Assembly: GCA_015494155.1 (NCBI GenBank)
Contig: WGBU01000070.1
Span: 1 to 64,000 of the forward strand
DNA from: Deltaproteobacteria bacterium
GTDB lineage: Bacteria > Desulfobacterota > Dissulfuribacteria > Dissulfuribacterales > Dissulfuribacteraceae
Direction of reading: 5' to 3'
Length of the DNA: 64,000 bases
Position 1 is the stretch's first letter. Every line of letters starts with the position of its first letter. A program made the translations under genes and the position numbers. Under the pieces are notes generated by a model. The model made no database searches. It was given only the letters and a program-made list of their open reading frames with translations, and was not told the origin of the DNA. Positions 1,501 through 26,627 of the stretch are shown here, piece after piece.

Positions 1501-1538
1501 AAACTTAAAAGGGGTTACAACCTTTAAGCTGTAACCCC
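1501..1538 (-). terminator. Terminator of the initiator tRNA gene
   Basis: On the minus strand GGGGTTAC (1538-1531) pairs with GTAACCCC (1518-1511), followed by TTTTAAGTTT. It lies 10 bases after the encoded CCA of the tRNA, so the tRNA appears to be a single-gene transcript. Confidence 0.8.
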
Positions 1539-1548
1539 TTGATTTTCT

Positions 1549-3432: not shown

Positions 3433-5877
3433 TCAATCTTCGGCTAGCCGTGCCACTGCTGCAATACTATCATCTTCGCTAAGTCTTATGAGTCTTACAC
3501 CTTGAGTGGCCCGACCTGTAGGCCTCACATCCCGTACAGGCAACCTAATGATGTGGCCAGACCGTGCCACCAACATCACCTCATCTTCGTCCCTCACATG
3601 CATTATGGCCACTACCTTACCAGTCTTTTCTGTTATCTTGAGATTTATAATACCCTTACCACCCCTTGCCTGGGTACGGTACTCACTCAACTCGGTGCGC
3701 TTTCCAAACCCACGCTCTGAAACAGTTAGCAGGGTCCCCTCGTCTTGGTCTATTACCTCCATACCTATGACCTCATCTCCCTCTTCGAGCCTTATGCCCC
3801 TAACTCCGGCGGCTATACGCCCCATAGGACGCACATCTGTTTCAGAGAACCTGATGCACAATCCCCCCTTGGTGCCCAATAATATATGGGAGGAACCAGT
3901 AGTGAGTTCAGCGGCTATCAATTCGTCATCCCCATTCACTGTGGCAGCAATGATCCCTTGGGGCCTGGGTCTTGAAAAGGCCTCGAGGCTCGTCTTTTTC
4001 ACAATGCCCTTTTTGGTTGCCATGACCACATAACGATCGCTATGAAATTCTCGGACTGGAATAACGGCAGTTATCCGCTCGTTTTCCTTGTGTTCGAGGG
4101 GAAGTAGATTCACCAGCGCCTTGCCTCTGGAGGCCCTTGAGGCCTCTGGTATCTCATGTACCCTGAGCCAATAGAGCCGGCCCTTATTACTGAAACAGAG
4201 GAAATAGTCGTGGGTCGATGCCACAAATAGCCTCTCGATAAAGTCCTCGTGTTTACTCGATAGCCCAGTGACACCCTTTCCGCCCCTCTTCTGGCTCCTA
4301 TAGAGGCTGAGAGGATTCCTCTTGATGTAGCCCTTATGAGACAGGGTCACCACCATGTCCTCTTCCACAATGAGGTCCTCAATCCTGAACTCTTTGACCT
4401 CATCTATGATTTGAGTACGCCTTGGGTCGCCATACTCCTCTTTTAATGAGATGAGCTCATGCTCGATTATCTCCATTACCTTGGCTTCGCTTGCAAGGAT
4501 CTCTTTGTATTCTGAAATGGCCTTTAAGACCTCTTCGTATTCCTTTACGATCTTCTCCCGCTCAAGGCCTGTAAGCCTCTGCAATCGCATGTCCAGTATG
4601 GCCTGTGACTGGACAGGTGTAAGACCAAACCTCTCCATGAGACCTGCCTTGGCCTCCTGTGGGGTCTTAGACCCCCTAATAAGGGCAACGACCTCGTCTA
4701 GATTTTCTATGGCCTTTTTCAGCCCCTCCAGGATATGGGCCCTTTCCTCGGCCTTTTTGAGTTCATATCTGGTACGTCTTACTACAATGGTCTTTCTGTG
4801 TTGCAGAAAGTGATCCAAGAGTTCCTTTAGATTCATGAGTTGAGGTGCGCCATTTACAATGGCGAGCAAGATGATACCAAAGGAACTCTCCATTAATGTG
4901 TGCTTATAAAGGTGATTCAAGACCACCTCTGCCACCCCATCCTTCTTCAGCTCTACCACGATCCGTATTCCATCGCGGTCCGATTCATCCCTCACCTCAT
5001 GGATGCCTTCTATCTTCTTTTGCTGGCTGAGAAGTACAATCTTTTCAATGAGTTTGGCCTTATTTACCTGATACGGGATCTCTGAAATCACAATGAACTC
5101 GCGCCCCTTCCGTGGCCTTTCTACTGTGGCCCTTGCCCTTATCTTGATTATCCCCTTTCCGGTCTCATATGCCGCCTTAATGCCAGAGCGGCCACAGATG
5201 AAGGCAGCAGTAGGGAAGTCTGGGCCTGGCACAAACTCCATGAGCTCTGCCACACTGATATTGGGGTTGTGGATCATAGCCACTAGGGCATCGACGATCT
5301 CTCCTAGGTTGTGTGGCGGGATGTTAGTAGCCATTCCCACTGCAATACCCGCTGCGCCATTTATGAGCAGATTGGGCACCTTAGATGGGAGGACTACTGG
5401 CTCCATGAGAGAGTTGTCGTAGTTGGGGACAAAGTCAACTGTGTCTTTATCGATGTCTGCCATCAGTTCGTGGGCCAATTTTTTAAGACGTACCTCAGTG
5501 TACCTCATGGCTGCTGGCGCATCGCCATCAATGGACCCAAAGTTCCCCTGTCCATCGATGAGTGGGTATCGCATGGCAAAATCCTGGGCCATCCTCACAA
5601 TGGTGTCATAGACAGCGGCATCTCCGTGGGGGTGGTACTTACCTATAACATCGCCCACGATCCTGGCGGATTTTTTATATGGTTTATTGTAGTCGTTTCT
5701 GAGCTCGTGCATGGCATAGAGTATGCGCCTGTGGACAGGCTTTAGGCCATCCCTTACATCGGGAAGGGCCCTACCTATGATGACGCTCATCGCATAGTCT
5801 AGATAGGACTTCTTGAGCTCAGCGGCAATGTCACAAACGTCGGTCTTCTCCTTAAAAAGCTCGCCTTGTTCTGGCAT
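3433..5877 (-). CDS. gyrA: DNA gyrase subunit A
   Basis: This is the DNA breakage-reunion subunit of the gyrase A2B2 complex. The catalytic tyrosine is Y126 in AAMRYTEVR, and the C-terminal half has the six-bladed beta-pinwheel with a perfect GyrA box QKRGGKG, which separates it from ParC. Length (814 residues) is normal. The quinolone-resistance region reads [13 protein letters not shown], so the position equal to E. coli Ser83 is Ala87, while the Asp87 equivalent (D91) is kept. The gene lies 18 bases downstream of nikR and abuts gpsA. gyrB is not in the window. Confidence 0.98.
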
Positions 5878-5895
5878 GGAACGTGTGCCTCCAAT

Positions 5896-6330
5896 CTAAC
5901 TAAGTGTTTCGCCTGTGGTGGTCATGGTGAGAGTACAGTGTTTTACGCCCTTGAGTGCCTTTAATTTGTCTGCCAGAGAGCGAAGCTCACCAGGCATCCC
6001 TTTAACTATTGCTACTTCAAGGCAATTGTGATGGTTGAGGTGTACGTGCTGGGACACTATGACCATGTCGGGAAATGCGTGTTGAATATCCAGTATGGAA
6101 TCTACCAATTCACGCTTGTGGTGGTCATAGACATAGGTGATGGTACCTACGACGACCCGGTCGCCAAATTCCTCTTCCCATTCCCTACTGACCAGCTTTT
6201 CGCGGATGAGGTCTCGGATGGCCTCGGATCTATTCTTGTATTGCTTTTCCCTTATGTAATTATCAAAGGACTCGATGAGGTCTGAGGGAATAGAGATACC
6301 AAACCTTGTTATAGACGTCTTTGTAGCCAT
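5896..6330 (-). CDS. nikR: Nickel-responsive regulator NikR
   Basis: This 144-residue protein has an N-terminal ribbon-helix-helix DNA-binding domain (TRFGISIPSDLIESFDNYI, residues 8-26) and a C-terminal ACT-like nickel-sensing domain. The square-planar Ni ligands are all present: H84 of one subunit with H95, H97 and C103 of the other (HVHLNHHNC). NikR usually represses nickel uptake and sometimes regulates urease or hydrogenase genes; no nickel transporter or hydrogenase is in this window. The start codon lies inside a 17-bp inverted repeat and no Shine-Dalgarno sequence is visible. It is followed by gyrA after 18 bases, an unusual partner. Confidence 0.96.
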   Translation of the reverse strand: MATKTSITRFGISIPSDLIESFDNYIREKQYKNRSEAIRDLIREKLVSREWEEEFGDRVVVGTITYVYDHHKRELVDSILDIQHAFPDMVIVSQHVHLNHHNCLEVAIVKGMPGELRSLADKLKALKGVKHCTLTMTTTGETLS

Positions 6331-6362
6331 TTGTGGGTTTTTTTACCACAAATGGCTACAAA
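6320..6362. promoter_or_regulatory. 17-bp perfect inverted repeat spanning the nikR start codon
   Basis: TTTGTAGCCATTTGTGG (6320-6336) is the exact reverse complement of 6346-6362, with a 9-base A/T-rich centre. The nikR ATG (6330-6328) is inside one arm. It could be an operator for NikR autoregulation or an mRNA hairpin that hides the start codon. No T-run follows the stem on the minus strand, which argues against a terminator for the secretin gene upstream. Confidence 0.75.
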
Positions 6363-6375
6363 CTGCAACAAATCA

Positions 6376-8190
6376 CTACATATTTGACGCAAGATGTTTG
6401 ACTATACGGGGGCGCAATAAGATGATGAGTTCCCTCTTGTTGGTATATTCCCGCATATTCTTAAATGCATTACCTATAAGTGGTATGTCTCCTATTATTG
6501 GCACCTTGGACTCCTTATTTCCCTTGATCTCATCGATCAGTCCGCCGATTATCAGAAATTCACCATCCTTTACCTTGGCCATGGTGCTCATCTCCCTAAG
6601 ATTTACCCTGGGGAGCCCCACCTCGCTCTCTGCACCCCTGGAGCCAAAACTCCTGTACTCTATAGGTTCCTGGAGCTGTGAGGTCACTGGTGTGAGCTGA
6701 AGAACTACCTCATCGTCGTCTGCTATCTGTGCTACCACTGAAAACCCAAGTCCTGACAGTATGCTCTTGGTGTCCACTGTATAGGTAATTATACCTGTCT
6801 CAGAGTCCACGGTGGACTCAACACTGTCTATATATCGTACACTCTCACCCACAGTAAGCATGGCGGGCTGTCCATTTAAAAGAGAAAGTTTTGGATTGGA
6901 CAACACCTTCACCTTTCCATATTCGTTTAGTGCATTTAGGAAGAGGTCAAAGGTCTTGTCTGCCATGGTGACCCTACTGATGAACTTGATGCCATCGGTG
7001 GGATATATGGCCCCATTATCACCAAAGACCACATTGAAGTTAAATCTAGAGTCTTTGAGGAGATTGGTCCAGTCCACTCCAAGGGAATGGGTCCTTTCAA
7101 GCCGTACCTCTATTATCTTTGCCTCGATGATCACCTGTTTGGCCAACTCATGTTTCAGTGTATTAATATAGGATTCTACCTGTCTCAGCATGGAGTGTGG
7201 GGCAGTGACAGTGATTATTCCCAGTGGCTTGTCGATGGTATAGAAGAATCCTTCATGGCTCCTTGTGGACCTCACTGTGGCCGCTCCCCGTTGTTGTGCA
7301 GTGCTTGAACGCGAGATCCCTTCTGCAGCTAGGGCCCTATCCACACAGAGTGCCTGTTGGGCGGGTCTCGATGGGTATTGGCGCCTACAGGCCTCCCTGA
7401 TCTGCATCTCTCGTTGCCTTGACACATCTCGCGATGTAACCAGTGGTGCCTGGGTCGTGGCGAGATTGAGGATCTTGTCGAGATTCATACTTATGGTGTG
7501 CCATATATCCAATTGAGTGCCGTCATGTTCTAAGGACACTGTACCCCGCACCATGCCCTGGGCAGTCTCTTCACTGCCCAAGAGGTCTCCACCCACACTC
7601 GACTGATAATTGCCGTTTAAGAATGGGGCAGGGATGTAAAACCTCTCCGTGTCCTTGTAGCCTACTACGATGGTATTCTCTTTGACTCTATAAAAGTAAT
7701 CTTGTTGTCTTAAGAGATTGTCCAAGGCCTCCCAAAAGTCCTCGTCTGCCTTAATGTGTACCTCTACAGGGGCCTCTTGATCCACGTCGCTAGCGAAACT
7801 CAGGGAAAAGCCCTTGATCTCTACAAGTTTCTTAAGGACTTCCTTGAGGGGCACTGGTCCACCCTCTGAAGACATATCTGCCCCAACCTTTAGCTCTGGT
7901 AGCCCTGTGGAGGTCTCCTTTATATCCACCTCTTTTACCTTAAAAGAGGGGGTCCATTCCACCTGTGGTATGATGAAATGATCACCTTTGGAAGAGAGGG
8001 GCCTTGCCCGTGTTACCTTTCTCTCACCCACTTGATTTGTTGGGGGTGTCTTGGCGATTTCCTGCGCCACTTCCTTAGATATGTCATCGCTACTGCCCTG
8101 TTGCACCGGAGCAGCACACCCATAGAAGAGCATCATAATTCCCAAAAGACCCAATCTCACATATTTGGAAATATCCATGGTCACCCCCAT
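6376..8190 (-). CDS. Type IV pilus / MSHA-type outer-membrane secretin (MshL/PilQ-like)
   Basis: The 604-residue product should form the outer-membrane pore through which the pilus exits. A lipoprotein-type signal (GIMMLFYGC) ends near residue 25. An STN-like domain follows around residues 105-185 (VPLKEVLKKLVEIKGFSLSF). The C-terminal secretin homology domain covers roughly residues 320-600, with the VIIEAKIIEVRLERTHSLGVDW block and VPIIGDIPLIGNAFK near the end. A loop between the domains holds two cysteines (REACRRQYP and QALCVD) that could form a disulfide. It is the last gene of the pilMNOP cluster, 8 bases after the STN-TPR gene. An internal ATG at 8178 with GGGGGTG upstream is an alternative start. 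Sequence style is closer to MshL than to classical PilQ, so I give no symbol. Confidence 0.88.
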   Translation of the reverse strand: MGVTMDISKYVRLGLLGIMMLFYGCAAPVQQGSSDDISKEVAQEIAKTPPTNQVGERKVTRARPLSSKGDHFIIPQVEWTPSFKVKEVDIKETSTGLPELKVGADMSSEGGPVPLKEVLKKLVEIKGFSLSFASDVDQEAPVEVHIKADEDFWEALDNLLRQQDYFYRVKENTIVVGYKDTERFYIPAPFLNGNYQSSVGGDLLGSEETAQGMVRGTVSLEHDGTQLDIWHTISMNLDKILNLATTQAPLVTSRDVSRQREMQIREACRRQYPSRPAQQALCVDRALAAEGISRSSTAQQRGAATVRSTRSHEGFFYTIDKPLGIITVTAPHSMLRQVESYINTLKHELAKQVIIEAKIIEVRLERTHSLGVDWTNLLKDSRFNFNVVFGDNGAIYPTDGIKFISRVTMADKTFDLFLNALNEYGKVKVLSNPKLSLLNGQPAMLTVGESVRYIDSVESTVDSETGIITYTVDTKSILSGLGFSVVAQIADDDEVVLQLTPVTSQLQEPIEYRSFGSRGAESEVGLPRVNLREMSTMAKVKDGEFLIIGGLIDEIKGNKESKVPIIGDIPLIGNAFKNMREYTNKRELIILLRPRIVKHLASNM

Positions 8191-26568: not shown

Positions 26569-26603
26569 TTTTGTTAAATTTTATACGTGAAAATTTAACA
26601 AAA
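26569..26603. repeat. 14-bp perfect inverted repeat upstream of the sat promoter
   Basis: TTTTGTTAAATTTT (26569-26582) and AAAATTTAACAAAA (26590-26603) are perfect complements around ATACGTG. It lies between the nrfD terminator and the sat -35, at about -52 to -86. The arms contain TTGTTAA and TTAACAA, which equal Rex half-sites, but 16 bases apart instead of 4. Confidence 0.7.
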
Positions 26604-26627
26604 AATGGGGGCATGTGCCCCCATTTT
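26600..26627 (-). terminator. Terminator after the nrfD-like gene
   Basis: AAAATGGGGGCA (26602-26613) and TGCCCCCATTTT (26616-26627) form a 12-bp stem, with a T-run on the minus strand. It lies 22 bases after the nrfD-like stop and separates that gene from sat. Confidence 0.85.

Follow-up and report, generated by a model that had tools for sequence, protein, structure and literature searches.

The window, meaning here the whole 64-kb stretch of DNA that was analysed, carries on its minus strand a gene for the nickel-responsive regulator NikR, placed between a secretin gene and gyrA, and a long palindrome lies across the start of this gene. The features of the locus are as follows:

1509-1540, minus strand: hairpin of 11 bp beyond gpsA and the UPF0280 gene, from an inverted-repeat scan; putative terminator.
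3433-5877, minus strand: gyrA, by profile matches, 18 nt downstream of nikR.
5896-6330, minus strand: nikR, encoding a nickel-responsive ribbon-helix-helix regulator of 144 aa (NCBIfam NF003381, 183 bits against a cut-off of 105; Pfam NikR_C and RHH_1).
6320-6336, minus strand: 3' arm of the palindrome, CCACAAATGGCTACAAA, holding the nikR start codon and the larger part of the M-A-T-K codons.
6337-6345, minus strand: loop, TAAAAAAAC, with an in-frame TAA (6345-6343) and a candidate extended -10 hexamer, TAAAAA (6345-6340, TGG before it); possible promoter.
6346-6362, minus strand: 5' arm of the palindrome (in the nikR sense), TTTGTAGCCATTTGTGG, within the pilQ-nikR gap.
6329-6353, no strand assigned: inner dyad ATTTGT-N13-ACAAAT, the sole part of the palindrome common, as a dyad, to the nearest relative.
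6376-8190, minus strand: secretin gene (PilQ/MshL type), by profile matches, upstream of nikR.

By its profile matches, the gene is a true nikR. Its ATG occupies 6330-6328 on the minus strand, 12 nt downstream of the in-frame TAA, and no further ATG, GTG or TTG occurs ahead of the conserved ITRFG motif. The annotated ATG is thus the sole ordinary start candidate, and a later ordinary nikR start is not available before ITRFG. No Shine-Dalgarno-like run precedes the ATG, as originally reported. This is unremarkable, since such a run was found before nikR in just 5 of 28 relatives by a crude 4-mer test, which misses runs of the AGGT type. No sign of leaderless genes was seen in this genome among 67 open reading frames without a Shine-Dalgarno sequence, a weak test that relies on crude start calls and mechanically defined frames.

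The palindrome arms (6320-6336 and 6346-6362) are complementary at 17/17 positions around a spacer of 9 nt, in the minus-strand order TTTGTAGCCATTTGTGG-TAAAAAAAC-CCACAAATGGCTACAAA, and the nikR ATG lies inside the second arm; the 17-bp perfect inverted repeat containing the start codon, first noticed by reading of the letters, is therefore confirmed, with arms that are 100% complementary. It is unusually long and exceeds chance expectation. Among 250,579 bases of the same genome (the 64-kb window and 186,579 further sampled bases), no other perfect inverted repeat with a 3-30 nt spacer is as long, the runner-up having 14 pairs, and in six first-order Markov simulations of 250,579 bases each the longest arm was 14, reached once. 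Exact arm copies in the 2.38-Mb, 201-contig assembly are limited to the two palindrome arms, making the palindrome single copy, and one-arm matches with two to three mismatches occur at 15 further places. Copies near nickel-transport or hydrogenase genes had been proposed as a check and were not found: none of the 15 inexact matches lies on the contigs that carry the nikM operon (C171), the operator at the TonB receptor (C189), NiFe-hydrogenase matches (C47 and C105) or Prismane-family matches (C21 and C175). As separate observations, a NiFe-hydrogenase large-subunit match on one of these contigs (G000:C47:43851-44348; L135) contains one in-frame TGA, possibly a selenocysteine codon or a frame break, and two adjoining perfect hairpins of 14 and 11 bp at 26569-26627 of the window are probably a terminator pair.

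One role suggested for the palindrome was that of a non-canonical operator at which NikR represses its own gene. The N13 spacing of CATTTGT-N13-ACAAATG equals that of the delta-proteobacterial NikR operator, for which the published consensus is GTGTTAC-[N13/14]-GTAACAC (PMC545781), and both are inverted repeats at a nickel-related gene with inner half-sites 13 bp apart. The half-site sequence differs, however, CATTTGT matching GTGWTAC at 2/7 positions (by eye), and the recognisable operators of this genome (G000) lie elsewhere. Predicted operators of the type GTGWTAC-N13-GTAWYAC stand before nikK-M-L-Q and before a TonB receptor gene. The first, GTGATAC-N13-ATATTAC (G000:C171:195-221; L105 195-221), is upstream of nikK-nikM-nikL-nikQ, the products of which are a DUF4198 protein, CbiM, a protein of 203 aa that matches no Pfam family and is taken for NikL, and CbiQ; a corresponding site is present in the nearest relative, G002, which represents a second genus, and a related one in G001. 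The second (G000:C189:2792-2818; L131 1501-1527) has two mismatches to the pattern and is found where a gene for a TonB-dependent receptor begins. A predicted site in G002 precedes a receptor with the same Pfam families and a closely similar sequence, and the predicted site at the receptor suggests nickel-regulated uptake across the outer membrane. G002 also has a predicted NikR operator (C7:8660-8686; L103) about 300 bp upstream of a gene for a CbiK-family protein whose N-terminus resembles a signal sequence.

A loose form of the operator pattern matched less often than its reversed control, and a tighter one was adopted in its place. This tighter pattern occurs at two places in G000 (each strand counted) and its control at two forward and one reverse, so the bare count is not in itself significant, and the support for these operators comes from their position at nickel-uptake genes and from the sites in G002 and G001. 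A matrix built from seven sites, with G000's own included so that the G000 operator score is in-sample, scores the operators at 25-37 bits, against -1.3 for the best-scoring stretch at the nikR start. Across the nikR upstream regions of 29 relatives (-300 to +60, with strands assigned by hand and L006 and L030 scored on the right strand), the best score is 16.3 bits, from a site within pilQ at -279 in L012, and no other exceeds 6.7; a recognisable NikR operator does not appear to accompany nikR in the members of the order examined. With same-genome operators that differ in sequence and sit at nickel-uptake genes, and with no site of operator strength at nikR in the relatives, self-repression through the palindrome is very improbable. 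The position of nikR directly upstream of gyrA (window 3433-6330) is an old arrangement in the order, present at 26/30 loci, with pilQ found upstream at 13/30 (some loci stop at contig ends). Despite this old adjacency, a NikR site at the palindrome fails, and no evidence was found for the suggested link of nickel to gyrase expression.

Comparison among relatives separates an old inner part of the palindrome from private outer arms. A nikR gene was found in 80/119 genomes searched, from which 30 loci were taken, the window's own included; a search for named near relatives yielded three loci, none closer than 78%. NikR of G002 is 83% identical to that of the window, and G002 is the only locus with an upstream region alignable to it. 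The runs ATTTGTGGTAAAAA and ACAAATGGC are identical in the two, the outer arms differ, and G002 retains the inner ATTTGT-N13-ACAAAT core alone (6-bp arms), set within a conserved block of 14 nt. An identical run as long as ATTTGTGGTAAAAA arose in 0/20,000 shuffles. Given that this block is identical although synonymous differences in nikR are saturated between the two genomes (pS 0.85, pN 0.12), it is probably under constraint, and the pN value indicates that NikR is under purifying selection and presumably expressed. The repeat, the absence of which from near relatives was to speak against the original prediction, is in large part absent there: the outer arms are missing from G002, and the inner 6-bp arms persist. 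No comparable repeat over the nikR start was seen at the other 28 loci, with the upstream sequence of three rows left unused in this comparison (L006 and L030, read on the wrong strand, and L019, which has an N). In L004, from another family, an 8-bp dyad, TCTCGTAA-N17-TTACGAGA, brackets the -10 element of its nikR promoter; it lies 33-65 nt before the first aligned codon and may be due to chance.

The conserved block may represent an extended -10 element (TGG-TAAAAA) together with the start codon, and thus a promoter and start region. TTGACA lies 18 nt before TAAAAA in G002, the window has a poor -35, and a consensus promoter scan reported no minus-strand promoter at the block in either. The same conservation could reflect a DNA operator of another dimeric regulator, as ATTTGT-N13-ACAAAT overlaps the putative promoter and the start, where a bound protein would block nikR-gyrA transcription. 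Both half-sites are identical in two genera, set around a partly different spacer and between different outer flanks, which is operator-like, but neither G000 nor G002 has a second exact copy of the motif, and a promoter -10 region with a start codon also explains its conservation; such an operator is unlikely, though a serious rival. Among known regulatory sites, the CIRCE element of HrcA is, like the palindrome, positioned near a start. Its sequence, TTAGCACTC-N9-GAGTGCTAA (PMC545781), shares the N9 spacing of the palindrome but agrees with the nikR inner arm at 0/9 bases (by eye). CIRCE, Rex and CRP/FNR sites were all rejected by eye on spacing or sequence.

The left and right arms pair at 17/17 positions in the window and at 9/17 in G002, and the crossed combinations give 13/17 (G002 left with window right) and 11/17 (window left with G002 right). 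These counts are compatible with a homogenising event in which one arm was copied onto the other, with a single outgroup leaving the direction unfixed. The palindrome may accordingly be a by-product, in which a template-switch (quasipalindrome) mutation perfected a short imperfect dyad that has no selected function, NikR being made in adequate amounts. The outer arms are private to G000, which has eight more pairs than G002, the occurrence in one genome means that no covariation set can be built, and a single template-switching event can produce a perfect stem, according to PMC8794818. There too, a perfect stem corresponds to a short, imperfect one in a relative; those hairpins differ in belonging to RNA genes rather than to an mRNA start, and here the direction of change is inferred. 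Against an inconsequential origin, the change falls precisely on the start codon, within a conserved block, and ought to affect translation strongly there, and with G002 as the sole alignable locus its direction cannot be polarised. The by-product explanation is doubtful, though it carries considerable weight.

At the RNA level, the palindrome region is predicted to fold with -29 to -30.7 kcal/mol (z = -5.05, equalled by 0/200 shuffles), and the unpaired probability of the nikR AUG in this fold is 0. The nikR start region reaches -28.1 kcal/mol, compared with a mean of -13.7 (sd 5.0, lowest -27.6) for 46 crude open reading frames of the window, a mechanical set that takes the first start per frame, so that some of its strongest folds may be false starts, and that has a length limit above nikR; the nikR start regions of 29 relatives range from -3.1 to -26.4 kcal/mol. 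A hairpin hiding the start codon, the second role originally suggested, is thus upheld as a prediction only, with the AUG fully paired at about -28 kcal/mol, and is plausible. No such stem can form in RNA that starts at 6345 (the first loop base; -4.0 kcal/mol) or at 6338 (-2.7 kcal/mol). For G002, the predicted RNA fold is no more stable than those of shuffles (z 0.01), and the AUG there is also mostly paired in an 80-nt fold; as the strong stem is present in one genome, selection for the hairpin lacks support. Rfam 15 gave no match over the gathering threshold and three sub-threshold matches (two microRNA models and one Termite-leu).

The hairpin begins 13 nt past the secretin stop codon (6378-6376), which itself lies 45 nt before the nikR ATG. 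This pilQ-nikR gap of 45 bp is the shortest among the 13 loci with pilQ upstream, the others measuring 94-425 bp. A T-run terminator is present in the gap at 9/12 of the other loci, and TTGACA or TTGACT at 8/12; the window has neither. The same scan found no T-run terminator in the gap upstream of nikR in G002, L004 and L010. Such proximity to pilQ, and the terminators in the same gap of most pilQ-adjacent relatives, would suit a 3'-end element of the pil mRNA, either a terminator without a U-run or a stem that stabilises the message behind pilQ. However, neither strand has a T-run after the hairpin, and terminator scans list none at the palindrome, in keeping with the earlier opinion that a plain terminator is unlikely. 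Moreover, the stem contains the nikR start, and gyrA follows close behind with no promoter of its own identified. The chance that the hairpin serves as a pil 3' end is slim. The transcription unit of nikR and gyrA plausibly ends at the 11-bp hairpin at 1509-1540.

The strong hairpin coincides with the conserved start-proximal core and with the short, terminator-free gap behind pilQ. The preferred reading, held tentatively at a probability of about 0.38, is that the palindrome functions in RNA, as a lineage-specific hairpin that silences nikR on read-through mRNA from the pil cluster. In a transcript beginning upstream, which in practice would be pil-cluster read-through, the arms would pair into the 17-bp stem, burying the nikR AUG and keeping NikR translation low, and gyrA, gpsA and the UPF0280 gene downstream would still be transcribed despite the stem. 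A transcript of nikR's own, from the putative TGG-TAAAAA promoter, would start within the 3' arm at approximately 6334-6330, lack the stem, and be translated with little or no leader. If there were no such short transcript, the stem could shut nikR off wholly. The perfect arms were perhaps made by template switching during replication.

A similar arrangement protects the transposase gene of IS10/Tn10 from external promoters: read-through RNA folds the translation start away, and translation proceeds from RNA that the element's own promoter starts beyond the 5' arm. The nikR locus is alike in that the start region is predicted to be paired in the long RNA, and any RNA begun in the loop would have no stem. 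It differs in that nikR is a chromosomal regulator gene, the stem is longer and perfect, the AUG itself lies in the arm, and the internal promoter is only a candidate. Among the papers listed for NikR with leaderless or inverted-repeat topics, none showed the arrangement seen at nikR. A more far-reaching version of read-through silencing is distinctly unlikely: a promoter nested in the loop would separate nikR's own leaderless, translated mRNA from a folded, silent pil read-through mRNA, gyrase would be driven from the pilus operon without an excess of NikR, and the inner dyad of the two genera would be the ancestral switch.

If the hairpin works as proposed, it would constitute chromosomal insulation from read-through by start-codon pairing, acting on a metal regulator that is joined to gyrase. 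The locus also corrects the tempting idea that a palindrome overlapping a regulator gene's start serves as that regulator's own operator: the likely NikR operators of this genome can be named and lie elsewhere.
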